Origin: Rhodococcus sp. SBT000017
GTDB lineage: Bacteria; Actinomycetota; Actinomycetes; Mycobacteriales; Mycobacteriaceae
Assembly (NCBI RefSeq): GCF_003688915.1
Contig: NZ_REFU01000002.1
Location: 797,016 to 861,015, forward strand
Length of the DNA: 64,000 nt
Direction of reading: 5' to 3'
In this document: piece after piece, positions 43,114 to 58,690 of the stretch
Position numbering within the stretch: the stretch's first letter is position 1
Layout: each line of letters begins with the position of its first letter
The notes under the pieces: generated by a model
What the model was told of the DNA's origin: nothing
What the model saw: only the letters and a program-made list of their open reading frames with translations
Database searches by the model: none
Program-made: the position numbers and the translations under genes

Positions 43114-44034
43114 TTACTCCGAGAGAATCCGATCGATGTCGTCGAGCACGGTCTGCCCGCCCATGGGCCCGACGCCGGTGATCCAGTACGACAGGTCCAC
43201 CGCGTGCGGATTCGGTAGTACCGACGCGTTGGCGGTGATCGACGCCGGAATCGCTGCGGGGTCCGATGGGTCAGAGGCGGTGACGACGATCAGATCAGCG
43301 GCCGCCTCGGCCGCCAGCTCGGGCGAGAGGTCGACCGAGATCTCGTCGGCCCATTCCGGCCTCGGCGGGGTGGTGAAGCCTGCGCACTCGAGGGTGCTTC
43401 CGGCGAACGACGTCGGCCCGTACAGTGTCAGTTCGCCGGCGCGGGGGCGAATCAACTGTGCGGTCTTTCCAGCGGTGTCGTGCTTCTCGGCGATCTCGGC
43501 ACACCGATTTTCGTAGGCGGTGAGCAGGTCCTCCGCCTTCGCCTCCTTGCCGAGAATGCGCCCGACGAACTGGACACTGTCGCGCCACGGATCGGACTGG
43601 GAGGCGATGAACACAGTCGGCGCAAGGGCGGCGAGTTGGTCGTAGTACTCGGCGTGCCGAGTCTCCGTTCCCAGGATGAGATCTGGTTGCAGGGCCGCGA
43701 TGTCCTCGATGGTCGGTTCGGCAACCGTACCGACGGTCGCGATGTCCGCGGCCTCCGTCCCGAGGTACCCCGGCACGCCACTGGCCTCGCTGAGCACTGC
43801 GGTGCCGACGGGCACGACGCCGAGGGCGACTGTGGTGTCCAGCTCGACCGGCTCGAGGGTGACGATGCGCAGCGGGGTCTCGGGAACGTCGACCGTTCCC
43901 CGGACGGTCTCGATCGATCGCGTCGCGCTGCCTGCACTGTCGGAGGTTGCGTCGGTGGACGAACACGCCGTCGCAGCCACACCGAGGGCGGCGATGGTGA
44001 GCGCGAGGGCCGAAATGCGGGCATGGGACTTCGT
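43114..44034 (-). CDS. siderophore ABC transporter substrate-binding lipoprotein with a non-canonical start
   Basis: About 306 residues. A hydrophobic signal ends in ATACSS (lipobox), followed by the FecB-like domain (VETPLRIVTLEPVEL-type entry, ALQPDLILGTE). No ATG, GTG or TTG lies in frame between the iron box and the signal peptide. The best start is ACG 44032-44034, followed by AAG TCC and preceded six bases earlier by GGAGGA. An ATG-to-ACG change, a sequencing error or true ACG initiation are the alternatives. It should bind a ferric siderophore outside the membrane. Confidence 0.75.
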   Translation of the reverse strand, partial: TKSHARISALALTIAALGVAATACSSTDATSDSAGSATRSIETVRGTVDVPETPLRIVTLEPVELDTTVALGVVPVGTAVLSEASGVPGYLGTEAADIATVGTVAEPTIEDIAALQPDLILGTETRHAEYYDQLAALAPTVFIASQSDPWRDSVQFVGRILGKEAKAEDLLTAYENRCAEIAEKHDTAGKTAQLIRPRAGELTLYGPTSFAGSTLECAGFTTPPRPEWADEISVDLSPELAAEAAADLIVVTASDPSDPAAIPASITANASVLPNPHAVDLSYWITGVGPMGGQTVLDDIDRILSE

Positions 44035-44071
44035 AAAGGGTCCTCCGAGGGAAAGTTGTGCAGAATCATAA

Positions 44072-44090
44072 AGAGGGTAGCCTATCCTTC
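44072..44090. promoter_or_regulatory. IdeR/DmdR-like iron box
   Basis: On the minus strand GAAGGATAGGCTACCCTCT matches 13 of 19 positions of the IdeR consensus, with the TAGGCTA centre intact. It lies 38 bp upstream of the putative ACG start, so iron repression of this lipoprotein gene is likely. Confidence 0.65.
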
Positions 44091-44134
44091 CACTTCCCGG
44101 TGACGCCAGGCCGGGCAGTCGGTACGGTGTGGCT

Positions 44135-44689
44135 GTGACCACACCACGCATTCCGTCCGGTACCGCCAAAACCCTCGGGCCCATCAACTGGGTCATCTGC
44201 AAGGTGATCGCCAAAGGTGCTGGGGTGCCCAATCCTCACTTGTTCACCACCCTCGGGCGCACCGGTGGGCTGTATCGGGCATGGCTGTTCTACAGCGGCC
44301 ACCTGATGCCCGGCGGGAAGATCTCACGCAAGGAAACCGAAATGGTGATCCTGCGCGTGGCGCACCTGCGCGATTCCGCGTACGAGATGGACCACCACAT
44401 CCGGCTGGGCAAGCGGGCGGGCATCGACCGGGATCTGCTCGAGCTGATCGAGACCGGACCCGACGCACCGGGACTGTCGACGCGGTATCGGACCATTCTG
44501 ACCGCGGTCGACGAACTCATCGCCACCAAGATTCTCTTCGACGCGACCTGGGCTCAACTGGCCACCCAGTTCGACGAGCGGCGACTCATCGAGTTCGTCC
44601 TGCTGGTCACCCAATACGACGGCCTGGCAACCACTCTCGCGACCCTGCGGGTCGAGCGGGATTACGGCGACCGGCCACCGCGTCCGTGA
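44135..44689 (+). CDS. carboxymuconolactone decarboxylase/AhpD-like protein without the cysteine pair
   Basis: 184 residues from GTG 44135 (44129 is also possible). The helical AhpD-like fold is recognisable (ETEMVILRVAHLRDSAYEMD, then LIEFVLLVTQYDGLATTLAT). The redox motif C-x2-C is absent; the equivalent region reads YEMDHHIRLG, as in many CMD-like proteins of unknown activity. A His pair remains. Coupled to the methyltransferase by GTGA. Confidence 0.8.
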   Translation: MTTPRIPSGTAKTLGPINWVICKVIAKGAGVPNPHLFTTLGRTGGLYRAWLFYSGHLMPGGKISRKETEMVILRVAHLRDSAYEMDHHIRLGKRAGIDRDLLELIETGPDAPGLSTRYRTILTAVDELIATKILFDATWAQLATQFDERRLIEFVLLVTQYDGLATTLATLRVERDYGDRPPRP

Positions 44690-45450
44690 GCGAGTCAGTC
44701 GAGACCGCACTGCGGCGCGCGCTCGAGATGATCGAGCCGACGACGCTGCGCGAGTTGGCGCGCACCGACGGTGGCTACGTCGAACTGCTGCCGGACGTGC
44801 CCGCACCGAACCCGTCGCCGGCGAGCATCGCGATGAACAACCGCGTGGTCGCCGCGATCTACGAGAAGCTGTGGCGTCCGTTCGGGGTGTCCATGATGGG
44901 CATCGCCGGCATGTCGATGGCGGCCGAGCGCGCCAAAGCCGTCGCCGACCTGAGGTTGAACGGGCCGCAACGAGTGCTCGACGTCGCGTGCGGCCCCGGC
45001 AATTTCACCAAGTTCCTGTCCGAGAAACTCACCGGTGACGGTATCGCGATCGGCTTCGACATCTCCGAGGCCATGATCGCCCGCGCAGTGCAGGACAACC
45101 GTGGACCACGTGCGGCGTACGTACGCGGAGACGCTGCCCACCTGCCGTATTCGGACGACGCTTTCGACGCCGTATGCTGCTACGCCGCACTGTATCTCGT
45201 TCCGAAGCCCATGACAGTGCTGGACGAGTTGATTCGCGTCGTCCGCCCGGGTGGACGCATCGCGATCATGACCAGCTGCGAGCCTCGTCCGGCCCCGCTG
45301 GGCACAGTCGTCGGCTTCGGCACCGGCCTGGCGGGCGTGCGGATGTTTCCGAGGAACCTGTTCGTCGACGTGTTCGAGGCGTCGGGACTGACCGAGATTC
45401 AGCAGGACGTCCGGGGACTGGCCCAGTTCGTCAGTGCCACGAAACAGTAA
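44686..45450 (+). CDS. SAM-dependent methyltransferase, paralog of the one at 49-50 kb
   Basis: 254 residues from GTG 44686. An N-terminal lid (IAMNNRVVAAIYEKLWRPFG) precedes motif I (VLDVACGPGNFTKFL), the acidic residue in IGFDISEAMI, and VVRPGGRIAIMTSC. It is closely similar to residues about 130-369 of the DUF4873-fused protein at 49064-50173, so the two are paralogs flanking the AurF genes. Substrate unknown. Confidence 0.85.
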   Translation: MSESVETALRRALEMIEPTTLRELARTDGGYVELLPDVPAPNPSPASIAMNNRVVAAIYEKLWRPFGVSMMGIAGMSMAAERAKAVADLRLNGPQRVLDVACGPGNFTKFLSEKLTGDGIAIGFDISEAMIARAVQDNRGPRAAYVRGDAAHLPYSDDAFDAVCCYAALYLVPKPMTVLDELIRVVRPGGRIAIMTSCEPRPAPLGTVVGFGTGLAGVRMFPRNLFVDVFEASGLTEIQQDVRGLAQFVSATKQ

Positions 45451-45465
45451 CGGGCAGAGGCGAAC

Positions 45466-46326
45466 CTACGGGCCGATACTGCTGTTCTTCGCCAGTTTCC
45501 TACCGGCCGCCGAGCCGAGCCGGTTGAGCGGGGCGAGCAGGTCCTGGTACCGCGGACCGACGACGCGCGGAATCAGATCGAACACACGGGCATCGGGGCC
45601 GATCAGAACACGAGGCCTGTTTCGTTCCACTCCGGCGAGTATCACCTTGGCCGCTCTCGTCGGGGTGGTGAGTGCGATCTGCTGGAAGCGGCGCGAGGCC
45701 TCGTCAGGAGCACCGAGATCATCCATTCCGCGAGCGTTGGCCACGATGTTGGTCTTGATCCCACCGGGGTGCACGCACGTGACTCCTACGGGATGGCGAG
45801 CGACCTTCATTTCCTGACGCAACGCCTCGGTGAAGCCGCGGACGGCGAACTTCGCCGAGTTGTACGCACTCTGACCGGGGATACCCATCAGGCCGAACAC
45901 GCTGGAGACATTGACGAGATGACCTTCCCCGGAGTCGATCAACGCCGGCAGAAAAGCTTTGGTGCCGTTGGCAACCCCCCAGAAGTCGATGTTCATGACC
46001 CACTCGAAGTCCTCCCAGGTCATGTCCACCACATCTGCGCCCAGTGCGACGCCGGCGTTGTTCGCCACGAAGTTGACGCGTCCGAATTCGCCGATGACGG
46101 CGTCGGCATGCGAGTAGACCGCGGCCCGGTCCGATACGTCCAGCTCGTACGGCACCGTGCGCGCTCCGATCTTCTCGCACAGAACCACGGTCTCCCCGAG
46201 CCCTTCACCGTCGATGTCGGACAGCGCAAGCTGCGCTCCACGGTTCGCCAGATTCAGCGCGAGGGCTCGGCCGATTCCCGAACCCGCGCCGGATACGACG
46301 GCTACCTTGTTCTCGAAATTCTTCAT
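45466..46326 (-). CDS. short-chain dehydrogenase/reductase
   Basis: 286 residues from ATG 46326. The cofactor motif VVSGAGSGIGRALAL, NNAGV, and the catalytic S-x12-Y-x3-K (NVSSVFGLMGIPGQ, then SAYNSAKFA) are intact. It resembles long SDRs of the mycobacterial sniffer/acetoin type acting on lipophilic ketones or alcohols. It overlaps the degenerate AurF gene by 4 bp and so belongs to the operon. Confidence 0.88.
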   Translation of the reverse strand: MKNFENKVAVVSGAGSGIGRALALNLANRGAQLALSDIDGEGLGETVVLCEKIGARTVPYELDVSDRAAVYSHADAVIGEFGRVNFVANNAGVALGADVVDMTWEDFEWVMNIDFWGVANGTKAFLPALIDSGEGHLVNVSSVFGLMGIPGQSAYNSAKFAVRGFTEALRQEMKVARHPVGVTCVHPGGIKTNIVANARGMDDLGAPDEASRRFQQIALTTPTRAAKVILAGVERNRPRVLIGPDARVFDLIPRVVGPRYQDLLAPLNRLGSAAGRKLAKNSSIGP

Positions 46327-47198
46327 GTGCGCACTTCCGCGTTCTGTTCGTCGGGTCCGACTCCGGTCAGTCTCCACAGCGCCGAGGTGAGGGTGCCGTC
46401 GAGCATTCCGGCCGAATCCAGGAAGGCGACGGTGCTCGCGGCGTCCCGACGTCTGATCTCGGATCGACGACGCCGCGACGCGAACGCGCCTCGAGCAGAA
46501 CTGATGCCGATGGATCGGTACACCTCGAACGACACTCCGAGACGGAGAATCACGTTGGCCAGCAGAGCGAGCAGCACACGGTTGTACGCGCGAGCCATCG
46601 CATTCGAGTTGGTCTGCGCAGCAACCACTTCCGATCGCGCGGACGCAAAACGATCGGCGCTCCCGAGCCCATGGATCTTCACGGCCTGTCGAACATGGGG
46701 TTCGATACCGGGGTCGGTCACCGCACCGGCCATCGACCGGGCAAAGGTCTCCTCGACCAACAGAATGGACGCGTGCGATGCTGCACCCAGCGGTAGAAAG
46801 CCCAACAGCTTGGCGGCCGTGGTCGTGCCCCGCGGCGGCTTGTAGGGCGGAACTTGCGTGGCGCGAACCAGCCGTCCGAAGGTGATCGTGGTCCGCGAAC
46901 CGCCTGCAACCTCGTCGAGAGCATTGCGCGAATCGGTGCTGTTGAGCCCCTCCTCCGCTACCCGCCTGAGCTGGTTACCGATCAGCATGGCCGACAGATA
47001 CGACACCGTGCTCCATCTGCTCACTGCCTCGTGCAGAGCCAAGGTACGCCGATCCTGCTCGGCCAACCTGCCCCACAGGCGGGTCCCGTACAACGTCACC
47101 GAGTCTCTCGGCAACGCCGACGCCTCACTCTGCCAGGGTGATTCCCAGTCGATGTCGACATACGGATCGTACTGGACCGCCGACGAGCGTGGGCTCAT
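46323..47198 (-). CDS. AurF-like protein lacking most diiron ligands
   Basis: 291 residues from ATG 47198. It aligns along its length with the AurF protein encoded just upstream (shared LGFLPLGAA block, same order of helices), but the metal site is lost: E112 is A70, the E-x2-H pair EESRH is GGSRT, and EESRH in the last helix is GSADR. Only E150 and H176 remain of seven expected ligands. The gene is otherwise intact, coupled on both sides by 4-bp overlaps, so it looks like a retained pseudoenzyme rather than a decaying copy. Confidence 0.75.
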   Translation of the reverse strand: MSPRSSAVQYDPYVDIDWESPWQSEASALPRDSVTLYGTRLWGRLAEQDRRTLALHEAVSRWSTVSYLSAMLIGNQLRRVAEEGLNSTDSRNALDEVAGGSRTTITFGRLVRATQVPPYKPPRGTTTAAKLLGFLPLGAASHASILLVEETFARSMAGAVTDPGIEPHVRQAVKIHGLGSADRFASARSEVVAAQTNSNAMARAYNRVLLALLANVILRLGVSFEVYRSIGISSARGAFASRRRRSEIRRRDAASTVAFLDSAGMLDGTLTSALWRLTGVGPDEQNAEVRT

Positions 47199-48187
47199 AC
47201 CAGATCGTCCGGCATGGCGCGGGTCATCTTCCACAGGCGACGGGTCACGACACCGTCGCACATGCCGGCGTCGGCGAAGAATCGGATCATCGGTTCGGAG
47301 AAGAACTGCATGTTGGTCTTGTAGGTGGGACTGGCCATGGCGGTGACGATTCCGCGAATGGGGTTGATCCCGACGGATCGGTACACGCGCGGATTGATGA
47401 GTGCGATGTACGTGAAGTTGGCGATCGTCGCAAGGATGACGCGGTGGACCGCACGATTGACTCGATTGGTCGATTGCATCGCGCGCACCATTTCTTCACG
47501 GGCGTAGGTGATGTGACGCGACTCCTCGATCACGTGGATGCGCATCATCTGGCGCAGGTGTGGCTGCATTTCGGGATCGTTCTGCGCTTCTCGCTGCGCC
47601 CGATCGAGGACCTCCTCGATGAGAAGAGTCCCGCCGTACGTGGCCGGTCCGAGAGGGAGAAACTGACCGAGCTTCGCAACGACGAGACCCACTCTGGGCA
47701 GGAGGTAGGGCTTCAGGCCCGCCTTCTCGATCAACTTTCCGAACATGATCGAGTGGCGCGATTCCTCGCCGACCTCGGCTATCGAGTACATCGAATGATC
47801 GGAGAACGTGCCCTTGCCGAACACCCGAAGCAGATTTGCACTGAGAAACCCCTCGGCGTAGATACCGAACGAGAGAATGCTGACGATCTCGTGTCGCCCC
47901 AGTTCACGACGCTGCTCTTCGGAGAGCTTGTCCCACAACTTGGTTCGGTACAGCGAGGTTCGATGTTCGGGCATCCAGCGCATTCCGTCGACCACAGGAG
48001 CATCCCAGTCGATGTCGACCTCGCCATCGTAGAACTTGTTGGCAGTCGACTTCAGCAAGCGACTCGCGGTTTTCTCACGAGGCCCGACGGTCCGCGCCCG
48101 GGTGGCAGCCAAGTCCTCGGTCGCCAGTGCAGCGCGCCTCGACACCCCCGCGTCACTGCCCCGGTCACCTACAAGTGCACGCTTCAC
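47195..48187 (-). CDS. AurF-family diiron oxygenase
   Basis: 330 residues from ATG 48187. Diiron ligands are complete: E112 (IYAEGF), E142 and H145 (EESRH), E192 (LIEEVLD), H218, E222 and H225 (HVIEESRH). AurF enzymes oxidise arylamines; family relatives in mycolate bacteria are of unknown substrate. It is first in an operon of AurF, degenerate AurF and SDR, and divergent from a TetR. Confidence 0.85.
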   Translation of the reverse strand: MKRALVGDRGSDAGVSRRAALATEDLAATRARTVGPREKTASRLLKSTANKFYDGEVDIDWDAPVVDGMRWMPEHRTSLYRTKLWDKLSEEQRRELGRHEIVSILSFGIYAEGFLSANLLRVFGKGTFSDHSMYSIAEVGEESRHSIMFGKLIEKAGLKPYLLPRVGLVVAKLGQFLPLGPATYGGTLLIEEVLDRAQREAQNDPEMQPHLRQMMRIHVIEESRHITYAREEMVRAMQSTNRVNRAVHRVILATIANFTYIALINPRVYRSVGINPIRGIVTAMASPTYKTNMQFFSEPMIRFFADAGMCDGVVTRRLWKMTRAMPDDLV

Positions 48188-48252
48188 AACCGATCCCCCC
48201 CTTGCGATCGACGACTCCCCCGAGACTTCGACTGACCAGAACTCACGGTAGC

Positions 48253-48276
48253 CAGTACCGGCGGTAGTAGGTACTG
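48253..48276. promoter_or_regulatory. candidate TetR operator in the AurF/TetR promoter
   Basis: The arms CAGTACC (48253-48259) and GGTACTG (48270-48276) form a palindrome 10 bp apart, between the AurF start (48187) and the TetR start (48331). A CRP-like TGTGG-N6-TCACC lies at 48285-48300. Confidence 0.55.
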
Positions 48277-48330
48277 TGACAAAGTGTGGTTCACGTCACC
48301 GGACGTGTCAACCCCGAGGAGTGTCGAGAC

Positions 48331-49071
48331 GTGTCCCACTGCAAGAAGATCGATGCGCGCACCGAACGCTGGCGAGAGCACCGACTTCACGTGCGGCGAG
48401 AGTTGGTCGCGGCCGCACTGATCGCGATCGATGTGCAAGGCCCGAACGTCAGCATGGGCGATATAGCGAAGGTGGCGGGGACGGCCAAGCCCAAGCTGTA
48501 TCGACACTTTGCCGACCGTTCCGATCTGCATACGTCAATAGTCCAGAACGTCCAGGACATGTTGTGGGACCGGATCATGAACACCGTCGACCTGGTCGAG
48601 GATTCCGTCGCCGATCTCATCGATCGCAGCGTCGCCGGTTACGCGGCGGTTGTCGTAGAACATCCCAACCTGTTCCGGTTTCTGGTCCACGGCCACTTCC
48701 TGAGTCGCTCCAGCGACCGCACGACTCCACGGCGCACCGCAGGTGACCCAGCGTTGGATTCCACTCGTGCCGCATCCGACATGGTGGCCCGAATATTGGC
48801 AGACGCCATACAGGAACCCGCTGTGGACAATTCGACCGTCGAGATGGTGTCCTACTCGACGTTCGGAGCGGTGGCAACCGCAACGGACTGGTGGCTCGGC
48901 AGCTCCGACGACCACGAATCCACCATGACCATCGAAGTATTCACCGCGCATCTGGCGGCCATCGTGCGAGGTCTCGTCGAGTCCTCGAGTGCGCTCCTCG
49001 GTATCCGCATCGAATCCGACCGACCCATACATCTCGCGTTCGTTCGTGACCAGGAGTGCACCTGTGAGTGA
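48331..49071 (+). CDS. TetR-family regulator of the AurF cluster
   Basis: 246 residues from GTG 48331, with GAGGAG nine bases upstream; a GTG at 48286 is less supported. The HTH is MGDIAKVAGTAKPKLYRHFADRSDL. Divergent from the AurF operon and overlapping the DUF4873-methyltransferase gene by 8 bp, so it probably controls both units. Confidence 0.85.
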   Translation: MSHCKKIDARTERWREHRLHVRRELVAAALIAIDVQGPNVSMGDIAKVAGTAKPKLYRHFADRSDLHTSIVQNVQDMLWDRIMNTVDLVEDSVADLIDRSVAGYAAVVVEHPNLFRFLVHGHFLSRSSDRTTPRRTAGDPALDSTRAASDMVARILADAIQEPAVDNSTVEMVSYSTFGAVATATDWWLGSSDDHESTMTIEVFTAHLAAIVRGLVESSSALLGIRIESDRPIHLAFVRDQECTCE

Positions 49072-50173
49072 TCTATCCGGTAAGCCCGATTTCCGCGGAC
49101 CGGCAACTCTGACTTTCGAGGCCCCTCCTGCCGAGTTCGAGGTGCAGGTAGATCTGCGCGGACACTCCCAACCCATCGACGGCATCTTCCGCTGGTACGG
49201 CCGCGTCCGGCCACACGAGGCACTGCAGAGTTTCATGGCGGCTGCCGGCAGCCGCCGCAAAGGCAGGCTGAGCACCGAAAGCGGTGATGTGCCCGTCCTG
49301 GTGAGCGACGTGGACTTCTGGGGCCGATACCGCCTGCAAGGCACCGGGATGCCGCCGTATCCGCTCGTACCCGAGGAAGACCCGGACAGCAAGTCCGACG
49401 ACGTTGTCGCGCCTTCCCCCGAGGACCAGGCCCTCCACCGCGCCGCAGAGCTACTCGAACCCGAATTTCATACGGCTGCGGTCACCACCGACGGCTATGT
49501 GGAGCTGCTGGGCGGTACTCCTGCCCCGTCACCGACGGCTGCGAGTCGAGCCATGAACAACCCTCTGGTGGCCTCGATCTACGAAAAGCTCTGGCGTCCT
49601 GCCGGTGTCGCCATGATGGGAGTAGGCGGCATCTCGATGTCCGCCGAACGCGACAAGGCCGTCGAAGACCTACGGCTGTCCGGAGACATGAAGGTACTGG
49701 ACGTGGCAGCGGGACCGGGAAACTTCACCAGGTACCTCTCCGACCACCTGAGCGGTGATGGCATCACCATCGGGTTCGACATCTCCGAGCAGATGATCAG
49801 GCGCGCCGTTCGCGACAACCGCGGCCCCCACGCCGCCTACATGCGCGGTGATGCGCAGTCACTTCCGTTTGCCGACAACACATTCGACGCCGTCTGCTGC
49901 TTCGCTGCCCTGTACCTGATACCGAATCCATTGACCGTCGTCGACGAACTCGTCCGGGTTCTCCGGCCGGGCGGTCGAATCGCGATCATGACGAGCTACG
50001 GCCGCAACGCCGCTCCGGTCAAATCGGTGCTGGGGGCGGTGTCGGAACGCATCGGGGTCCGCATGTTCGACAAGGATCAGTTCACGTCGATCTTCGCGCA
50101 GTGCGGCATGACCGAGATCGAGCAGGAAGTACGCGGTCTCGCCCAGTTCGTCAGCGCCACCAACGCCCACTGA
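49064..50173 (+). CDS. DUF4873-methyltransferase fusion protein
   Basis: 369 residues from GTG 49064. Residues 1 to about 105 are DUF4873 (FRGPATLTFEAPPAEFEVQV, HSQPIDGIFRWYGRV, DFWGRYRLQGTGMPPYPL), a domain usually attached to or near flavin monooxygenases in actinobacteria. After an acidic linker, residues about 125-369 are a SAM methyltransferase (VLDVAAGPGNFTRYL, VLRPGGRIAIMTSY) paralogous to the protein at 44686-45450. I know no characterised fusion of these two domains. Confidence 0.82.
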   Translation: MSDLSGKPDFRGPATLTFEAPPAEFEVQVDLRGHSQPIDGIFRWYGRVRPHEALQSFMAAAGSRRKGRLSTESGDVPVLVSDVDFWGRYRLQGTGMPPYPLVPEEDPDSKSDDVVAPSPEDQALHRAAELLEPEFHTAAVTTDGYVELLGGTPAPSPTAASRAMNNPLVASIYEKLWRPAGVAMMGVGGISMSAERDKAVEDLRLSGDMKVLDVAAGPGNFTRYLSDHLSGDGITIGFDISEQMIRRAVRDNRGPHAAYMRGDAQSLPFADNTFDAVCCFAALYLIPNPLTVVDELVRVLRPGGRIAIMTSYGRNAAPVKSVLGAVSERIGVRMFDKDQFTSIFAQCGMTEIEQEVRGLAQFVSATNAH

Positions 50174-50180
50174 CGAAATC

Positions 50181-50753
50181 TCAGGTCTTGGGTCCGTAGT
50201 CGCTGACGATCCACTGCCCGTCCTGATCGGTGACCGTCACCAGCAGAAGGTTGGGCACCTTCCCCGGGTCGGGCTGCTGCACGTTCTGCGTCGTCTGCTG
50301 AGCGAACACCGCCACCTTGTACTCACCACCGGACTCGGAATCGATTGCTGCCGAGAGGACCTCGCCGGTCGCCACCACCTGCGACTCGTTCATGATCGCC
50401 GTCAGCGCCTCGCGGACCCCGTCGTACCTGTCCTGCAGGGACTGCGACGCCCCCTGGTCGACACCCTGGAAGAAGGCGTCGAGGTTGCGGTAGTCGTAAG
50501 TCAACGACCGCGCGGTGTACTCGGTCGCCGTGTTCACCGCCATCTGCCGGTCCTGTTCCTGTTCACGCTCGGCAGCCAGATCGCCTGCTGCAGAATGCCA
50601 CAGCACGCCGAAGACCACCGCAAGCACCACACCCGGTACTGCCTCAGCGACCACCGGCCACCGAATCCGGTGCCGTCTGGAGCCCTCGGGCACCGTTGCT
50701 GCCTTGTCCTCGGGCACTGTTGTTTTCGCCTCGGCTGCGTCTGTCTCGACCAT
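50181..50753 (-). CDS. Mce-associated membrane protein
   Basis: 190 residues from ATG 50753. A charged N-terminus, one hydrophobic helix (VVLAVVFGVLWHSAA) and a mixed alpha/beta domain (YDYRNLDAFFQGVDQGASQS) match the Mam proteins that stabilise Mce complexes. It lies 17 bp downstream of mceF and closes the operon. Confidence 0.8.
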   Translation of the reverse strand: MVETDAAEAKTTVPEDKAATVPEGSRRHRIRWPVVAEAVPGVVLAVVFGVLWHSAAGDLAAEREQEQDRQMAVNTATEYTARSLTYDYRNLDAFFQGVDQGASQSLQDRYDGVREALTAIMNESQVVATGEVLSAAIDSESGGEYKVAVFAQQTTQNVQQPDPGKVPNLLLVTVTDQDGQWIVSDYGPKT

Positions 50754-50770
50754 GAGGGGGTTAGCTCCAA

Positions 50771-51715
50771 TCAGTTCGGAATTTCTACGGAAAGTTTCGC
50801 CGGTCCGCCGGGAGGAAAGACGGTTTGCAGTACGTCGACGATGGACCCGGCGTCGACCCGCATCGGTTTGATGGGTGCGGTATACGGCTCGAGAAGCGTT
50901 GCGATCAAAGCAAGATCGGGAGACAGAGGCGTCAGGTACTGATCGATCTTCGGGGTGATCTGCCCGAGTGGATCGTCCCAGACATCCGCGCCGACGTACG
51001 AGTACTCGTTGAAGCCCTCGAGCAAGTTGGCCACCCCGTCGCCCGTCGCGCCGACCCACGGCGCCGCGTCGGTCATGACCGGGCCGTATCCGTACGCATT
51101 GCGACCCGCCTGCTGAGCATTGTCGTACAGCCGACGAATTTCGCCGCTCTTGTCTCGCACTGTGGCTGCCAGGAATCGAAATGCCTCCACCAGACGGTCG
51201 ACGTCGCCGTCACGCCCGTCGACAGCGGCCGATGCGGTCTCCGTCAGGCCTTTCAGTGCATTCGTATCGAGTTGCGAGGCAAGGGCATCGCCCAGGCCCA
51301 GTGCCTCACTGACGGTGACCGACGCACGAACCTGCTCACTACCGAGCGAGTCTCCGTCGGTGAGGTACGGACCTCCGGCGCTTAGAGGGCGAAGATCGAG
51401 ATACTGCTCGCCTGCGGCGGAAAGGTTCGCCACGACCACCTCGGAATCTGCAGGGATGAGATGGTCTGCATCGAGACCGAGAGTGACGTCCAACCCGCCC
51501 GGCACCACAGTGATCGATTCGACCCGACCGACCTGGATCCCGCGTGAGGTGACCTGCGAGGTGTCCATCAGTCCGCCGGAGGACTCCATCCGAACCACGA
51601 CATGGTTCGTCGTTCGAGTCGGATCGATGTCGAGTACACCGACGGTCAGGTATCCGACGCTGACGACCGTCATCACCACGAGTGCGACGAGCGAGAACAG
51701 TGTGCCCGGCTTCAT
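50771..51715 (-). CDS. mceF: Mce family protein F
   Basis: 314 residues. One N-terminal helix precedes the MCE domain (GGLMDTSQVTSRGIQVGRVE). The C-terminal helical part is shorter than in MceA-D. It forms part of the hexameric lipid-import channel. Overlaps mceE by 4 bp. Confidence 0.88.
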   Translation of the reverse strand: MKPGTLFSLVALVVMTVVSVGYLTVGVLDIDPTRTTNHVVVRMESSGGLMDTSQVTSRGIQVGRVESITVVPGGLDVTLGLDADHLIPADSEVVVANLSAAGEQYLDLRPLSAGGPYLTDGDSLGSEQVRASVTVSEALGLGDALASQLDTNALKGLTETASAAVDGRDGDVDRLVEAFRFLAATVRDKSGEIRRLYDNAQQAGRNAYGYGPVMTDAAPWVGATGDGVANLLEGFNEYSYVGADVWDDPLGQITPKIDQYLTPLSPDLALIATLLEPYTAPIKPMRVDAGSIVDVLQTVFPPGGPAKLSVEIPN

Positions 51716-52752
51716 CGGACAATTCCTATCCCGCGCAGGATCCCGATCATGTCGTCCGCGCGCGCACTCGGCCCTCCGTCTGCAGACACCGACCGCACTG
51801 CGATGTTCGGCGTCGACTCGAAGTACGGGATCAAGCGCTCCCTGAGCAGGGTATTGGCCTTGTCCACGTTCATCGGCACCGACGAGTCGGCATTCGCGAT
51901 GGTGATCAACGCCGGCGCGATGATGTCCACAGCATCCTTCAGCTCCGGATACGGGCCGGACAGTACGTCCCCGACGTACTGTGACATGTACCCCAGGCTG
52001 AAGATCATGTGGACGACGCTGAACAGAACCTCGGACAACCCTCCCGAACGTCTCGGGCCGAGCTCGAGGACACGCTCGACTCCATCACGTTGTGTCACAA
52101 CAGTATTCGAGATACTCTCCGCGGCACCGAGTATCCGATCGATTTCCCCGGTGTTGTCGCCGATATCGGTGAGCGCGGCCCTCGCTGCGAGGTTGATCTT
52201 GTCGACCTCGGCCTGATCGGGAGGAATCGCGGCATTGACGTTGTTCACCGCTTCCTGCAGTTGGACGTAATGGCCGCCGGTCACGATGTTCGACAGTCCG
52301 CGCAGCACGTCCTCGACGTTGTCGGCCGGAACAGTTCGTTCCACGGGAATGACGTCACCGTCGCGAAGGTAGGGCCCACCGGAGCCCGATGCCGAGCTCG
52401 ATCCCGCGCCGGAGGAATCGGCCGGTGGCTGCAGCGAGATGTAGATCTCGCCCAGAATCGACGACTGCCGAAGCTCGGCGACGGTATCGGTGGGTAGCCG
52501 AACATCGGCGGACAGGTCCACCGTCGCCACGGCGGTCGAACCCACCAGCTCGACGGTGTCGAGAACGCCCGCGTCGACGCCCTCGACGATGACCTTCGCC
52601 TTCTCCGGAAGATTGAGCACGCTCGCGAATTCGATTCGCAGAGAATACTTGTCGCCGGCGACATAACTACCGGGTATCGGAAGGTCGGCCGGATCGATGC
52701 TGCACGCCGACAGCAACGCAACACAGCACAGGCCGGTGAGCGCGCGCCTCAT
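51712..52752 (-). CDS. mceE: Mce family lipoprotein E
   Basis: 346 residues from ATG 52752. The signal ends in LSACS (C17), as in Lpr-type MceE lipoproteins. The MCE domain (ASVLNLPEKAKVIVEGVDAG) is followed by an Ser/Gly linker and helices. Overlaps mceD by 4 bp. Confidence 0.88.
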   Translation of the reverse strand: MRRALTGLCCVALLSACSIDPADLPIPGSYVAGDKYSLRIEFASVLNLPEKAKVIVEGVDAGVLDTVELVGSTAVATVDLSADVRLPTDTVAELRQSSILGEIYISLQPPADSSGAGSSSASGSGGPYLRDGDVIPVERTVPADNVEDVLRGLSNIVTGGHYVQLQEAVNNVNAAIPPDQAEVDKINLAARAALTDIGDNTGEIDRILGAAESISNTVVTQRDGVERVLELGPRRSGGLSEVLFSVVHMIFSLGYMSQYVGDVLSGPYPELKDAVDIIAPALITIANADSSVPMNVDKANTLLRERLIPYFESTPNIAVRSVSADGGPSARADDMIGILRGIGIVR

Positions 52753-53858
52753 CGCCAACCCGCCGAACCGAGGATCAGCTGCACCAATCCGACATCGATG
52801 ACGTCGCCTCGTTGCTGGTCCGCCGAGCACGTCGGCCTGTACTTGTTGAGCAGAGCGCAGACCTCGTTGGGAGAGTTGGTATCGATCTCGAATTGCGGCG
52901 GGTGATAGATCACGCGCCCGCTCTTGGAATCGTTGTCGTACATCGTCATCAAGTTCTCGCCTATGGTCGGCACCTGTTCGAGGATGTCCTTGATATCGCC
53001 CACCCGCCCGAGCAGTACATCGACCACCGGCACCACCTGGTCGAGAAATCCGTAGACCTTGTCGTCGTACTTCGCGACGTTGCGCGCCAGTGGCGGAATG
53101 AACTCGGTGGTCAAAGCGACTGTGGTCCCGAAGGCTTGGGTGAACTCCGACAGCGTGATCATTCCCCGCTTCAGATTGTCGAGCAGCTTCGCCACCTCGG
53201 GCCAGCTCACCACGAACGTGTCGATCAGACCGTCGAGGTTGTCGATCAGTCGACGCACGGTGGTATCCCGGTCGGCCGGATCGCCGACCAGCTGGGCCAA
53301 TTGTCGAAGACTCTCATTGAGCTGGGTGCCGGAGCCACGTAGCGAACCGTCGACCGACCGCAATGTGTCACCCAGGATCTGCTCGTGATTGCCCTCGGCG
53401 TCCGCCGGACCGAGCAGGTCCAACGCCAGCCCCGACACGGCGTCGAGCGTGTCACTGATCCCCAGCGGTGTTCTGGTGCGTTCCAACGGAATACAGCTCG
53501 ACCGATCGAACTCCGGGCCGTCGATGTACGGCTGCGTGAATTCCACATGGCGGTCGGTGACGATCGAACTCGACAGTGTCACGGCCCCCACCCCGGCGGG
53601 CAGCCGGAGGCCACCGTCGACATCCATCGTGACCAGCACCGCGGTGTCGGTGTTCTCGATGTTCGTCACCGTTCCGACGACCACGCCGAGCATCATGACC
53701 GAATTACCCTCGTACAAACCGACCGTGTCGGTGAACTCGGCACACATCGAGGAAGTGCCCGAGCCGGTGTCGATGACAGCGGTCGCGGACGCGACCGAGC
53801 CGACGAGCGTGACGACGACTGCCGCCGCCACGGCGATCCGTACCGATCTGCGGTTCAT
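52749..53858 (-). CDS. mceD: Mce family protein D
   Basis: 369 residues from ATG 53858. One N-terminal helix, the MCE domain (TVGLYEGNSVMMLGVVVGTV) and long helical regions. A Cys-containing C-terminus (YRPTCSADQQRGD). Overlaps mceC by 1 bp. Confidence 0.88.
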   Translation of the reverse strand: MNRRSVRIAVAAAVVVTLVGSVASATAVIDTGSGTSSMCAEFTDTVGLYEGNSVMMLGVVVGTVTNIENTDTAVLVTMDVDGGLRLPAGVGAVTLSSSIVTDRHVEFTQPYIDGPEFDRSSCIPLERTRTPLGISDTLDAVSGLALDLLGPADAEGNHEQILGDTLRSVDGSLRGSGTQLNESLRQLAQLVGDPADRDTTVRRLIDNLDGLIDTFVVSWPEVAKLLDNLKRGMITLSEFTQAFGTTVALTTEFIPPLARNVAKYDDKVYGFLDQVVPVVDVLLGRVGDIKDILEQVPTIGENLMTMYDNDSKSGRVIYHPPQFEIDTNSPNEVCALLNKYRPTCSADQQRGDVIDVGLVQLILGSAGWR

Positions 53859-54868
53859 CAGCACACCCTCCCCGGCAACGGAATACACACGCCGACGCCG
53901 ACGACCGTGTCCTGTGACCGATCGACGACGGGACCTTCACCACCGCCGATCAGGGCGGACAGGCCGTCCGCGCTTTCCTTCATGGTCGTGATCGCCCCGT
54001 CGACATCACCCAGCTGAGCGAACAGCTTCTGCGTGATCTCTTCGAGCTGGACGATCGACGGCTCCAGCCCCTTCTCGAATGCGACCACGGGGCGGTGGAA
54101 GAGCTCGAAGAGTCTTCCGAGGAGGTCGAAGGCACTGACGACCTCTGCGCGCTTGTCGCCGAATCCTTTGGTCAGGGTGCCGAGCTCACGTACGAGTTCG
54201 GTGAGCATGACACGATCGGCGGCCAACGCGCCGACGTACTCGTCGGACACCACGAGCCCGCGTTCGAGTTGGTCGGTGCGGGTGGCGATCACGTCGGTGA
54301 GCGAGCTCAGATTGTCCACGATGGCACGCGTCGACTGTGGCTGCGTACCGACTGCCCGGTCCAACTCGGCGACCGTCTGTCGCAACGTCGGACCGTCGAT
54401 ATCGCGGACCAACGGTGTCACCTGTTGGATCGCGTCGGACAGTTCGTAGGGAAGTTCGACCCGTTCCGGTGGGATCGGTGCCGACCCGAGCTCGTCGTCA
54501 CCGTGCGAGGTGAGCATCACGTAGTGACCCCCGATGGGAGTCAGCAACTTCACTGTCAGGGTCGAGGCATCACCGACGAAAACGTCGGAGTCGACACTGA
54601 ATTGGACGTCGACATGTGCACCTGCCAGCTGAACCGAGCGCACCGAACCGACCGAGATACCGGCGATCCTGATGTCGTCGCCCGGCTTCACACCGGCCGC
54701 GGAGCCGAACTCCGCGGTATACGTCCGCTCGCCGAGCGGGATCGTGTACAGCGCAGCCGCGACGAGAACGAGCACCACGGCGAACGCGACACCGACCGCA
54801 CCCCAGAACACATGCGTCTTGTTCTCCGACTGCTCGTCGCGAACGCCCTTGCGAACCACGCGTGTCAT
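53858..54868 (-). CDS. mceC: Mce family protein C
   Basis: 336 residues from ATG 54868 (54874 possible). One helix at residues about 22-41, the MCE domain (AAGVKPGDDIRIAGISVGSV) and coiled helices. Overlaps mceB by 4 bp. Confidence 0.88.
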   Translation of the reverse strand: MTRVVRKGVRDEQSENKTHVFWGAVGVAFAVVLVLVAAALYTIPLGERTYTAEFGSAAGVKPGDDIRIAGISVGSVRSVQLAGAHVDVQFSVDSDVFVGDASTLTVKLLTPIGGHYVMLTSHGDDELGSAPIPPERVELPYELSDAIQQVTPLVRDIDGPTLRQTVAELDRAVGTQPQSTRAIVDNLSSLTDVIATRTDQLERGLVVSDEYVGALAADRVMLTELVRELGTLTKGFGDKRAEVVSAFDLLGRLFELFHRPVVAFEKGLEPSIVQLEEITQKLFAQLGDVDGAITTMKESADGLSALIGGGEGPVVDRSQDTVVGVGVCIPLPGRVC

Positions 54869-55872
54869 TTGCACACCACCAAATTTTGTCCGCCGAGCAC
54901 TATCTGTCCGATGCCCGGAATGTCCTGTCGGCCTTGACTGCAGGAGTAGGTCTGGGCACCCGGATCGGGAATGCTCGCGTTGAGCCCGGTCAGCAGTGAC
55001 GGGGTGAGCGCGAGCAACTCGGTCACCTGATCGGTCTGCGGCAGTAGCCGTCGCAGTGCTCCGTCGACCGGTGCATAGCTGTTGTCGTACGCATCTTGCA
55101 GGCTCTCCAGCAAGCCGACCAGTGGTCCGAGTCCGTAGTTCGCCTGATCCAGCGACGCCAGCACGCCGTCCATCTGGGTGCTCAACCTCGATACCAGACC
55201 ATGCAGCTCTTCGAGGAGATCGGCGACCGCCGCCGACTGTCCGCCGATCGAGTCCGAGATCTGGCCGAGATTGTCGATCAGCAGTCCGATGATCGACTCT
55301 CGCTGAACGGCGAACTGGGTGATGCGATCCACGTCCCGCAGTACCGGAGCGAGTCCGGAACCGTCACCCTGCACCATACGGAGGATGTTCTCGGTGAACT
55401 GATTGAGCTGGGCGGTGTCGAGGGTGTCGAAGATCGGTTTGAAACCGTTGAACAGCGTGGAGATGTCGAACGATGGAATCGAGTACTCGAGCGGAATCGT
55501 CTCGCCGGACGCCAGCGGAGCACCGGTGGCCGCATCCTTCTGGATCAGCTCGACATATCGCTGCCCCAGGAGATTCTGATAGCGGACAGCAGCCTGTGTG
55601 TTGGCGAAGATCGGTCGCCGGCCTTCGATCTCGAATCCGACTCGGGCAATGGCTCCGTCGAGTTCGACCGACGAGACCTTGCCGATCTGCACCCCGGACA
55701 TGCGCACGTCGTCACCGACGTACAACCCGGACACATCGTCGAACTCCGCGCCGTAGGACGACAACGGTCCGCTGACCGGGGTACGAAGTGCGGCCACGAT
55801 GATCACGGCACACACCGCGGTCACCGTGAAGAAGGCGAGCAGTTTGACGGCCGGGCCCGCTACCTTCTTCAT
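54865..55872 (-). CDS. mceB: Mce family protein B
   Basis: 335 residues. One N-terminal helix, the MCE domain (VSGLYVGDDVRMSGVQIGKV) and a C-terminal Cys-containing end (CSQGRQDIPGIGQIVLGGQN). Overlaps mceA and mceC by 4 bp each. Confidence 0.88.
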   Translation of the reverse strand: MKKVAGPAVKLLAFFTVTAVCAVIIVAALRTPVSGPLSSYGAEFDDVSGLYVGDDVRMSGVQIGKVSSVELDGAIARVGFEIEGRRPIFANTQAAVRYQNLLGQRYVELIQKDAATGAPLASGETIPLEYSIPSFDISTLFNGFKPIFDTLDTAQLNQFTENILRMVQGDGSGLAPVLRDVDRITQFAVQRESIIGLLIDNLGQISDSIGGQSAAVADLLEELHGLVSRLSTQMDGVLASLDQANYGLGPLVGLLESLQDAYDNSYAPVDGALRRLLPQTDQVTELLALTPSLLTGLNASIPDPGAQTYSCSQGRQDIPGIGQIVLGGQNLVVCK

Positions 55873-56906
55873 CGGTTCGCCTCCTCGTGTGCGGCAACGG
55901 CTCCGGCCAGATTGGGCATGGTCTCGACGATCAGGTCGAGTTGCAACTGCGGCTTCCCATCCACGACGGGGAAAGCGTCGGAGATGCCGTCGAGCACCTG
56001 CGGAACCCGGTTGTAGCTGGGCGCGAACGTGCCGATCGACGCTGTGATGGGCACCAACAGATCCAATACGGTCGACAGCAGCGGCGTCAGGTCCGGATTG
56101 TTCTTCTTCAGCAAATCGCCCACCGGAACCAGCAACTGATCGCTGAGGCCGTCGTTGGCCGCGATGGTCCTCGCCCTGTCTGTGGGTGCCTCCACGTAGG
56201 CGCTCTTGTCCACCACTCCCACCACCAGATCGAGCAGGGGCGGGATCAGATTGCCGATTCCCTCACCCAGCTCGGCACCACGATGCAGCTTCCAGGCCAA
56301 CGGATCGATCTGATTGTTCGCCATCATCTGTGCGGTGTCGAAGAACGGCTTCAGACTTCGGCTCACCTCGACCGACGTGTTCGCCAAGAGATCCAGCAGG
56401 TTCTGTACTTGCTCGGTGTCGAGAACCTCGGTGAGGTCGGCGACTCGGCGGAACACTCCGGTCACCGTTGCGCCCCGCAGGTCTCCCGACACTTCGAGAG
56501 TCGAGTTGTCGGCGAGTCGATTGCCCGTCCCATCCGATAGCAATTCGATTGCCGTGGAACCGAATACGTTCGAGGACGAGAACTGGGCCTGCATGGTGTC
56601 GGTGAGCTCGCCGGCCTGACTCGGATCGATCTCGAGTTCGAGTCTCTGATGGCCGAAGCCGACGGTCTCGATGTGGTCCACGGTGCCGATCGACAGACCA
56701 CGGAACTTCACCTCCGACCCGGGGGTCAGCCCGTCCCCGACCGACGCCGCATCGAGCGTCAACTCGAAGGGCGACTCGAAGGCCCCGCGCGCATACGCGG
56801 TGAGGCCGCAGGCGATTACGGCCACGACCACGGCGACCGCCAGCCCGCGCACACGGAGCGCGGCGGGACCGGCCGATCGCCCCGTCAGATCGTCGAACAC
56901 TGCCAT
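55869..56906 (-). CDS. mceA: Mce family protein A
   Basis: 345 residues from ATG 56906. N-terminal helix (AVAVVVAVIACGLTAYA), MCE domain (GDGLTPGSEVKFRGLSIGTV) and long helices. It follows yrbEB by 2 bp and is the first Mce gene of the operon. Confidence 0.88.
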   Translation of the reverse strand: MAVFDDLTGRSAGPAALRVRGLAVAVVVAVIACGLTAYARGAFESPFELTLDAASVGDGLTPGSEVKFRGLSIGTVDHIETVGFGHQRLELEIDPSQAGELTDTMQAQFSSSNVFGSTAIELLSDGTGNRLADNSTLEVSGDLRGATVTGVFRRVADLTEVLDTEQVQNLLDLLANTSVEVSRSLKPFFDTAQMMANNQIDPLAWKLHRGAELGEGIGNLIPPLLDLVVGVVDKSAYVEAPTDRARTIAANDGLSDQLLVPVGDLLKKNNPDLTPLLSTVLDLLVPITASIGTFAPSYNRVPQVLDGISDAFPVVDGKPQLQLDLIVETMPNLAGAVAAHEEANR

Positions 56907-56908
56907 CT

Positions 56909-57781
56909 CTACCCCGAAATCCTTATGCCCGAGTCGAATCCCCACAGGACCAACGTCATGATCATGTCCAGAACCACCACCGCAACGAGGCTGGCTCTGA
57001 TGGCGCGTCCAGACGCGCGGCCGACACCTTCCGGACCGCCCGAGGCGTAGTAACCCTGATAGCCGTGGATCAGGATGATCGTCACGACGAACACCGCGGC
57101 TTTCAGCAGCGAGAAGAGAACGTCGAGCGGCTGCAGGAATGCGCTGAAGTAGTGGTCGTAGGTGCCGGAGGACTGTCCGCCGACCACGCGAACCACCACG
57201 GCGCACGACAGGTAGCTCAGAATGAGCGTCAGCAGGTAGAGCGGCACGATCGTGACGATTCCCGCGATGACCCGGGTGGTCACGACGAACGGCATCGACT
57301 GTATGCCTTGAGCTTCGAGGGCATCGATCTCTTCCGAGATACGCATCGCGCCGATCTCGGCCGTCATCCGGCATCCTGCCTGCGTCGCGAATCCGATCGC
57401 CGCGATCATCGGGGCCAGTTCGCGAGTGCTGGCGTACGCCGAGATGAAACCGGTCAACGGCTCCATCCCCACCATGCCGAGGGAATTGAATCCTTCGATT
57501 CCGACGGATGCACCCACCGCGACACCCAGCACGACGAGGACCGACACCGTCCCGCCACCGACGATGAGTTTCCCACTGCCCCAGGTGATGTCACTGAGAA
57601 TGAGCAGCATCTGGCGCCGATAGGAGCGGACGGTATGCGGGATGGCGGTGAGCACCTTGACGCAGAACGTCAGTTGATGACCCAGCATTTCGAGAACGTC
57701 GAACGGCTTGCGTCCGAGATACCTGACGCTGCGGGTGAGGTGAGCGGTGCCGTGCACGGTGTAGCGAGAAGGAGTGGCCAT
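56909..57781 (-). CDS. yrbEB: MlaE/YrbE-type ABC permease B
   Basis: 290 residues from ATG 57781. Five to six hydrophobic helices and the MlaE motif (EIGAMRISEEIDALEAQGIQ). It pairs with YrbEA to form the membrane core that moves lipids through the Mce complex. No frameshift is seen. Confidence 0.9.
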   Translation of the reverse strand: MATPSRYTVHGTAHLTRSVRYLGRKPFDVLEMLGHQLTFCVKVLTAIPHTVRSYRRQMLLILSDITWGSGKLIVGGGTVSVLVVLGVAVGASVGIEGFNSLGMVGMEPLTGFISAYASTRELAPMIAAIGFATQAGCRMTAEIGAMRISEEIDALEAQGIQSMPFVVTTRVIAGIVTIVPLYLLTLILSYLSCAVVVRVVGGQSSGTYDHYFSAFLQPLDVLFSLLKAAVFVVTIILIHGYQGYYASGGPEGVGRASGRAIRASLVAVVVLDMIMTLVLWGFDSGIRISG

Positions 57782-57782
57782 C

Positions 57783-58584
57783 TCAGCCCAACTTCTGTGG
57801 CATGAACATCGCGACGACCTGCGTGATCACGACGTTGACGGTGAACGCGGACACCACACCGAGCACCACGGAGGCGTTCACCGCGTTCGCGACCCGCGGG
57901 GTCCGTGGGCGGCGGACAACCCGCGCTGGCAGGCGACGACGATGACGATGACGCCGAATATCTCGGTCTTCACCAGGGCGACGACGAGGTCCGCCACCGA
58001 GGCGAAGGACGCGAACGAGCTGATGTAGCTGCCGGGCGTCCCACTCTGAAAGCCGACGTTGATCGCATAGCCCGCGGCCAAGCCCATGAAGATGATGAGG
58101 ATGCACAGGAACGGCGCCACCAGCAGGATGGCTGCCAGCCGCGGCGCGACAAGCCTGCGAATCGGGTCGATTCCCATCGTCGACAATGCGTCGATCTCGT
58201 CGCGGATGGTGCGTGCCCCCAGATCGGCAGCGACCGCCGCGCCTGCGGCACCGCCCAACAACAGCGCCGCAACGATCGGGGCACCTTGGCGGATCACCCC
58301 GAGGCCACCCGCTGCTCCTGCGATGGATGTCGCGCCGATCTGATCGGTGAGACTGCCGACCTGGACGGACACGATGACGCCGAACGGAATGGATACCAGT
58401 ACTGCGGGAACCACTGTGACGGTGACGACGAACCAGGCCTGGTCGATGGTGTCACGCCACGGATGACGCAGCGTGACGATATCTCGCGCGAGGTGAACGA
58501 AGGCCAGTACGCCCAGCTCCAGAGTTTGACCGAACGTTCTGAATCCACCGGAAACCCGCCGCTGACGCGTGCGAGCGTCGACAT
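57783..58584 (-). pseudogene. yrbEA: MlaE/YrbE-type ABC permease A with two apparent frameshifts
   Basis: The central part is intact (DLGARTIRDEIDALSTMGID). The N-terminus from ATG 58584 (MSTLARVSGG) is in another frame and joins the body only if one G is added at the CCC run 58555-58557. The C-terminus (VANAVNASVVLGVVSAFTVN to a stop at 57783) is also in another frame and joins if one G is added at CCC 57893-57895. Both look like single-base losses in short runs. The gene is essential to the operon, so sequencing error is more likely than decay. A TTG start at 58596 is also possible. Confidence 0.75.
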
Positions 58585-58670
58585 CGGCGACGACAATTCC
58601 CCACCCCCCAGCTCGTGTTCGGCGCGACTCCCCTCGCGCAGAAACGAAAGCTACCAGCCGACAACCGACC

Positions 58671-58690
58671 AAGTGACGTTTTCATCACTT
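58671..58690. promoter_or_regulatory. candidate operator upstream of the mce operon
   Basis: AAGTGACGTTTTCATCACTT has 8-bp arms with one mismatch around TTTT. It lies 87 bp upstream of the yrbEA start, in the gap before the divergent M48 gene. The binding regulator is unknown; the remaining 170 bp to the M48 start show nothing else clear. Confidence 0.45.

Follow-up and report, generated by a model that had tools for sequence, protein, structure and literature searches.

Genes of the locus and the AurF pair

The DNA analysed here, which we call the window, is a stretch of 64,000 nucleotides with which an 861 kb contig ends (NZ_REFU01000002.1) in the 5.65 Mb genome of Rhodococcus sp. SBT000017, and our subject is a gene cluster within it that holds two neighbouring genes of the AurF oxygenase family, AurF2 and AurF1. 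Our analysis indicates that AurF2 has kept every metal-ligand position of the family, that AurF1 has lost most of them and is maintained by selection, and that a Baeyer-Villiger monooxygenase (BVMO) gene has been deleted from the cluster. The original prediction had listed at 44129-50173 a CMD-like gene, two methyltransferases, a short-chain dehydrogenase/reductase (SDR), the AurF pair, a TetR regulator and DUF4873; in a Pfam search of the named genes against curated cut-offs every one of them is present and supported. The main features are these:

47195..48187, minus strand: AurF2, a di-iron oxygenase by sequence (PF11583, 238.4 bits, cut-off 29.6; seven ligand positions; AlphaFold2 (AF2) model)
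46323..47198, minus strand: AurF1, a ligand-poor AurF paralogue (PF11583, 103.8 bits, cut-off 29.6)
46326..46368, minus strand: deletion scar, an 11-base repeat (46358-46368) and then the final codons of the lost BVMO, joined to the end of AurF1
45466..46326, minus strand: SDR (PF00106, 157.7 bits)
48286..49071, plus strand: TetR-family regulator (PF00440 and PF19344)
49064..50173, plus strand: MT2, a DUF4873-methyltransferase fusion (PF16170, 89.1 bits, cut-off 25; class I methyltransferase models)
50181..58672, minus strand: mce operon, a putative lipid importer (PF02470, PF02405, PF11887)

The two units that had been placed around one divergent promoter are borne out for AurF2-AurF1-SDR on the minus strand, with ATGA-type stop/start overlaps deduced from the coordinates, and for TetR followed by MT2 on the plus strand; CMD and the second methyltransferase, MT1, form a third, plus-strand unit separate from the divergent pair. 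The longest AurF1 reading frame starts at 47261, and the likely ATG is at 47198, where it overlaps the AurF2 stop; the likely ATG of SDR, at 46326, overlaps the AurF1 stop in the same way. For MT2 the longest frame begins at 48989, and homologues of 369 residues suggest a start near 49064. The fusion is found in 22 of 120 homologues (the best 120 of 2157 matches), and the named fusion homologues among the matches listed belong to Rhodococcus or Rhodococcoides, bar one unplaced actinomycete.

Seven Glu/His positions, which we take to be the published metal ligands of AurF, are near invariant across the aligned AurF rows. AurF2 retains all seven (E112, E142, H145, E191, H218, E222 and H225). At the same positions AurF1 has S90, G121, T124, E170, H197, S201 and R204 in the numbering of the 312-residue reading frame, so that five of the seven are replaced. 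Replacement of five to six positions is seen in AurF1 of all 11 clusters found in the genus, and 16 database homologues share the same motif loss. A reading of the AurF pair as two oxygenases is not supported: without most of its metal ligands, AurF1 is probably not an oxygenase. Nor is it a pseudogene, since its low ratio of nonsynonymous to synonymous substitution (dN/dS 0.116-0.208, mean 0.176, for 15 pairs among six genomes; the AurF2 mean is 0.097) indicates purifying selection and hence maintenance, and since the gene is conserved.

AF2 models of the two proteins (pLDDT 79.8 and 83.8) were built from shallow alignments, each mixing rows of both proteins. The best match in the Protein Data Bank (PDB) is AurF itself, 2jcd, for the AurF2 model and 2jcd_B for the AurF1 model (E 6e-4, TM-score 0.59). 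A PDB sequence search with AurF2 gave zero matches, and searches with AurF1, with a joint AurF1/AurF2 profile and with DUF4873 gave chance-like matches only. At E ≤ 0.001 both proteins match PF11583 alone and no hydroxylase family of the multicomponent monooxygenases (soluble methane monooxygenase, toluene 4-monooxygenase).

Of 37 genomes of the genus, 11 share the core of the cluster (both AurF genes, SDR and the DUF4873-methyltransferase fusion) as a conserved set. Each of these 11 clusters has AurF1, AurF2 and SDR; TetR is found in 10, lying in two pieces in one of them (L079 of genome G208). The eleventh, in genome G232, holds the AurF pair, a BVMO, SDR and the fusion, and has no TetR match in its divergent gap (L080, 7422-7593). 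MceE and MceF adjoin the cluster in 10 of the 11 genomes, the contig ending in the remaining one. Of the six mce operon proteins scanned in the window, three match PF02470, two PF02405 and one PF11887 (Mce4_CUP1); MlaE permeases and MlaD/Mce proteins are thus combined in one operon, the arrangement that marks an Mce importer. The gene at 50181-51059 has no Pfam match and is termed mce-associated from its position. The combination of oxygenase, dehydrogenase and methyltransferase on which the original prediction had built stands, and it stands next to lipid-import genes.

The deleted monooxygenase, the sister cluster and other AurF pairs

In nine of the 11 genus clusters AurF1 and SDR are separated by the gene for a flavin adenine dinucleotide (FAD) monooxygenase of 487-505 residues that carries BVMO fingerprints. 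The motif GGxWxxxxYPGxxxD occurs in 13 of 13 relatives' sequences checked and FxGxxxHxxxWD in 12 of 13, L078 being without it; both motifs are type I BVMO fingerprints. The window cluster has no such gene. Eleven of its bases align 10/11 with the AurF1 end and 10/11 with the BVMO end of a relative's cluster (L072), where the two ends lie ~1.5 kb apart, and the tail of the window AurF1 resembles a BVMO tail, as does that of its homologue P0001. A deletion of ~1.5 kb removed the BVMO from this cluster, preserving the reading frame and the ATGA coupling to SDR. Most of the BVMO has also been lost in G208, via a different deletion; a short BVMO remnant accompanies the two-piece TetR match at about 6690-9510 of L079, and this cluster is apparently in decay.

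The same genome holds a second and more complete form of the pathway. This sister cluster (L070, G000:C2:645-652 kb) contains DUF4873, AurF, BVMO, SDR, reductase, hydrolase and TetR; mce genes lie ~6 kb away. Its order, DUF4873 divergent from AurF-BVMO-SDR-ferredoxin reductase-(alpha/beta hydrolase)-TetR, recurs in Gordonia and Nocardia, no hydrolase being flagged in the single Nocardia locus. Both the window genome and G208 own a sister cluster with its own BVMO; a link between this and the loss of the BVMO is only suggestive, since G215 and G227 kept their BVMO and hold the sister cluster as well. The sister cluster is also found on plasmid pGKT3 of Gordonia sp. KTR9 (L229, NC_018583.1, 104650-111492) and on a plasmid of R. 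erythropolis D310-1 (L230, NZ_CP032404.1, 27338-34598), there ~2 kb after an mce operon. As both plasmids are typed as mobilizable, the plasmid-borne form is apparently a mobile catabolic module. Read in sequence, its activities look like hydroxylation, oxidation of the alcohol, Baeyer-Villiger insertion and hydrolysis of the ester. The deleted BVMO, the adjacent mce operon and the sister cluster had been overlooked by the original prediction, and so had the ligand loss of AurF1 and the recurrence of such AurF pairs described below; its overall interpretation is supported in part.

How general is the pairing of an intact with a degenerate AurF? We scanned 301 genomes of the family for neighbouring AurF genes and collected 16 pairs outside the AurF1/AurF2 clusters (L081 among them), 15 in other genera and one in this genus (L177). 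Fifteen of the 16 consist of one intact and one degenerate AurF with three to seven of the seven positions changed, a proportion that is not a census because the pairs were chosen by eye among the matches listed. All 15 lie near DUF4873 and a reductase of the FAD/NAD/2Fe-2S (ferredoxin) type, and seven of them near a BVMO. The members of a pair lie within 3 kb of each other, the widest spacing being that of L220, and those of L177 are on opposite strands. The intact gene comes first in window-type clusters, the degenerate one in the further pairs that share a strand. AurF rows without a partner in their stretch are intact in 48 of 48 cases (one gene counted twice; the ligand count omits L006, one of the seven AurF genes of this genome).

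All 15 degenerate copies fall into one clade (support 100/100) that largely mirrors the partners, and their distances correlate with those of the partners (Mantel r 0.886, p 0.0001, n 15). The AurF1 clade of the window lies elsewhere in the tree. An approximately unbiased (AU) test rejected one common origin for all degenerate AurF proteins (p=0.0077); it used 44 of 60 rows, 18 of the 23 degenerate ones among them, and is subject to long branches and to the group having been named after the first tree was seen. The alignment left out rows with stops or of fewer than 200 residues (two L143 fragments), and AurF1 of L079 entered the tree cut at its own stop. Degenerate AurF pairs thus seem to have arisen at least twice.

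The set of TetR, AurF and DUF4873, for which a search for conserved neighbourhoods had been proposed, proves co-conserved beyond the genus as well. Among 44 DUF4873 loci in other genomes of the order, taken with ~6 kb on each side where the contig allowed, AurF is present at 38, TetR at 31 and both at 25; in all 25 of these AurF and TetR are divergent. By a rough estimate from the seven AurF places in the 5.65 Mb genome, chance co-location with AurF would be ~1-2%. A BVMO or reductase was found near 0 of the 44 loci at the thresholds used, within the fetched stretch. In lipothrenin biosynthesis, according to the passages of PMC10616846 at hand, deletion of litN (AurF-like) abolished N-hydroxylation and deletion of litO (DUF4873) reduced it.

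Proposed function and rival readings

We propose, with a probability of roughly one half, that the cluster, next to an Mce importer, is a unit for lipid oxidation under the control of TetR, in which AurF2 is the catalyst, AurF1 a non-catalytic partner and DUF4873 an accessory. AurF2 would carry the di-iron site and hydroxylate the substrate, presumably a lipid imported by the Mce system. AurF1, an AurF copy minus the metal site, would be most likely a heteromeric subunit, structural or regulatory, and the DUF4873 domain would be required by AurF for full turnover. SDR would turn the alcohol into a ketone, and the product may be capped or tagged by the fused methyltransferase. In most relatives in the genus the BVMO would then convert the ketone to an ester, with the alpha/beta hydrolase acting next in the sister pathway, which would amount to subterminal oxidation. 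Since the BVMO has been deleted here, the unit would end at the ketone or a methylated product, or else borrow the 63% identical BVMO of the sister cluster.

Several observations weigh against this proposal. C-hydroxylation is an extrapolation because the characterised AurF relatives, in the published passages at hand, are N-oxygenases. No reductase gene was found in the stretches of the 11 genus clusters, so electrons must come from elsewhere, and G232 has the AurF pair and no TetR. A BVMO is absent from eight of the 15 further pairs, so that subterminal oxidation is not their common denominator. In L222 (8894-11049) both AurF copies keep 7/7 ligand positions, and at each of L223-L225 there is an additional intact AurF. 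In the least-changed degenerate copies (e.g. L081, L213, L220) Asp, Gln or Asn stands at some of the changed positions, which makes residual metal binding possible in those copies. The searches may have overlooked partnerless degenerate copies, and the Mantel correlation would equally be expected from co-inheritance alone. The gene order of L222 also differs.

A wider version of the proposal, which we regard as possible and put forward tentatively, is that at least twice the AurF family evolved an oxygenase of two subunits, one catalytic and one metal-free. With DUF4873 in the place of the effector and, outside the genus clusters, a ferredoxin reductase, this would be a multicomponent monooxygenase, convergent with the soluble methane and toluene monooxygenases and attacking lipids imported by Mce systems.

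Could AurF1 instead act alone, as a ligand-binding or regulatory protein such as a lipid sensor or carrier, and be no oxygenase subunit at all? Its AurF-like predicted fold and its retained E170 and H197, two of the seven ligand positions, would suit such a role. However, every degenerate copy found, in 11 genus clusters and in 15 pairs elsewhere, has an intact AurF no more than 3 kb away, none of the 48 partnerless rows is degenerate, and the pairs outside the genus clusters look co-inherited since an old duplication, which makes this reading unlikely in our view. We are equally doubtful of biosynthetic tailoring, a reading near to the original prediction, in which N- or C-oxygenation of an aromatic, quinone or amide by AurF2 would precede completion of a secondary metabolite by the methyltransferases. 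This is what one might expect from LitN, DnfA and TsnB7, reported to act on nitrogen (passages of PMC10616846, PMC11160463 and PMC5719088), from LitN likewise adjoining a DUF4873 protein (PMC10616846, in part) and from the UbiE-like matches of the two methyltransferases, all under the NCBIfam cut-offs. But no synthase, ligase or carrier genes turned up among the neighbours scanned, which are part of the window's genes, and the BVMO, SDR, hydrolase, reductase and mce genes of relatives, sometimes plasmid-borne, fit catabolism. Finally, that AurF1 is a decaying duplicate in a cluster degrading as a whole, as the BVMO losses here and in G208 with its two-piece TetR match might suggest, is very improbable, since in the six genomes tested the AurF1 frame is unbroken and subject to purifying selection, near-identical AurF1 substitutions are retained across the 11 clusters and the deletion kept both the frame and the coupling to SDR.

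The proposed lipid-oxidation unit has partial counterparts among known systems. Subterminal oxidation routes employ a hydroxylase, a dehydrogenase, a BVMO and a hydrolase. The sister cluster of this genome and the Gordonia and Rhodococcus plasmids show the same set of activities, whereas here the first step is given to an AurF-type enzyme, and BVMO, hydrolase and reductase are missing from the window copy. AurF-type oxygenases are usually regarded as one-subunit enzymes. AurF2 is like the di-iron N-oxygenases AurF and CmlI in PF11583, the seven ligand positions and the predicted fold, and unlike them in being paired with a ligand-poor paralogue in a context of BVMO, SDR and mce genes. The beta subunits of soluble methane and toluene monooxygenases, and Rnr4 of yeast ribonucleotide reductase, have lost ligands. 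AurF1-AurF2 would work like such an alpha/beta di-iron hydroxylase without being a member of a bacterial multicomponent monooxygenase family. Rnr2-Rnr4 likewise joins a ferritin-like di-iron subunit and a related partner in a heterodimer (passages of PMC4245953); it and the alpha/beta monooxygenases belong to other protein families, and the heteromer here is one that we infer.

A close parallel is LitN-LitO, where, in the part of PMC10616846 at hand, an AurF-type oxygenase also stands beside DUF4873 with a TetR two genes on and DUF4873 is needed for full in vivo activity; it differs in that the lipothrenin gene table has no second AurF and the product is a hydroxamate. TsnB7 of the TsnB6/TsnB7 amide oxygenase is likewise an AurF-like oxygenase needing a helper protein, the accessory subunit TsnB6, which would be prior art if it were a degenerate AurF; its family is not stated in the passages of PMC13418202 and PMC5719088. 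Since LitO, TsnB6 and DnfB, the last proposed in a published passage to pass electrons from NADH, are known, helper proteins for AurF-like enzymes are not new. No description of a pairing between an AurF and a ligand-poor AurF copy was found in the open-licence literature, among the matches listed.

If our proposal is true, the co-inherited partner without metal ligands and DUF4873 would change how AurF-type enzymes are reconstituted, DUF4873 would gain a testable function, and a case of convergent alpha/beta evolution would be added for di-iron enzymes. Mce importers would be tied to a concrete oxidation module. The deleted BVMO illustrates, moreover, that the central step of a pathway can be hidden when a single genome is read.

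Operator candidate and neighbouring genes

Three further features lie between or beside the units:

48253..48276, no strand: operator candidate CAGTACC-N10-GGTACTG between AurF2 and TetR, from interspecies conservation
44129..44689, plus strand: CMD/AhpD-like gene, a neighbour rather than core (PF02627, 38.6 bits, cut-off 23)
44686..45450, plus strand: methyltransferase MT1, a paralogue of the MT2 domain by sequence comparison

A palindromic operator had been expected at the divergent promoter, and a palindrome does exist; the better conserved one is that at 48253-48276. Its core, AGTACC-N10-GGTACT, is perfect in nine of ten aligned species, G218 having one mismatch, and the outermost bases vary. 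This core has a single perfect copy in the genome; sites with one mismatch number seven, against five for a backward-pattern control, and with up to two mismatches one site was found in the window, 0.54 being expected from window shuffles. The palindrome was not found before CMD, the first gene of the CMD-MT1 unit. A second palindrome, CACGTC-N4-GACGTG (48292-48307), was rejected as an operator since it varies between species.

CMD and MT1, which the original prediction had counted among the pathway members, were rejected as core genes: CMD has a tblastn match in ten of the 11 genus clusters and none in G232 (L080), and MT1 is found in three and missing in eight. Six of these eight have an ABC1/UbiB-like atypical kinase gene in its place (L071 and L074-L078; PF03109 in L074), and two have neither. 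MT1 and the MT2 domain are about 62-66% identical, as judged from the window proteins against relatives' copies.

Upstream of the cluster lies a gene for UrtB, a urea ABC transporter permease (38943-39827), and at 43114-44232 one for a ferric-citrate-like substrate-binding protein, below its NCBIfam cut-off, with near-cluster matches in most relatives. The window's AurF1 and AurF2 are among the closest to those of G220, its SDR is far from that of G220 (dN 0.137) and near that of G218 (0.04), and MT1 is common to the window, G218 and G221. This suggests recombination inside the cluster, leading to mosaic haplotypes (window 45466-46326; L071-L075).

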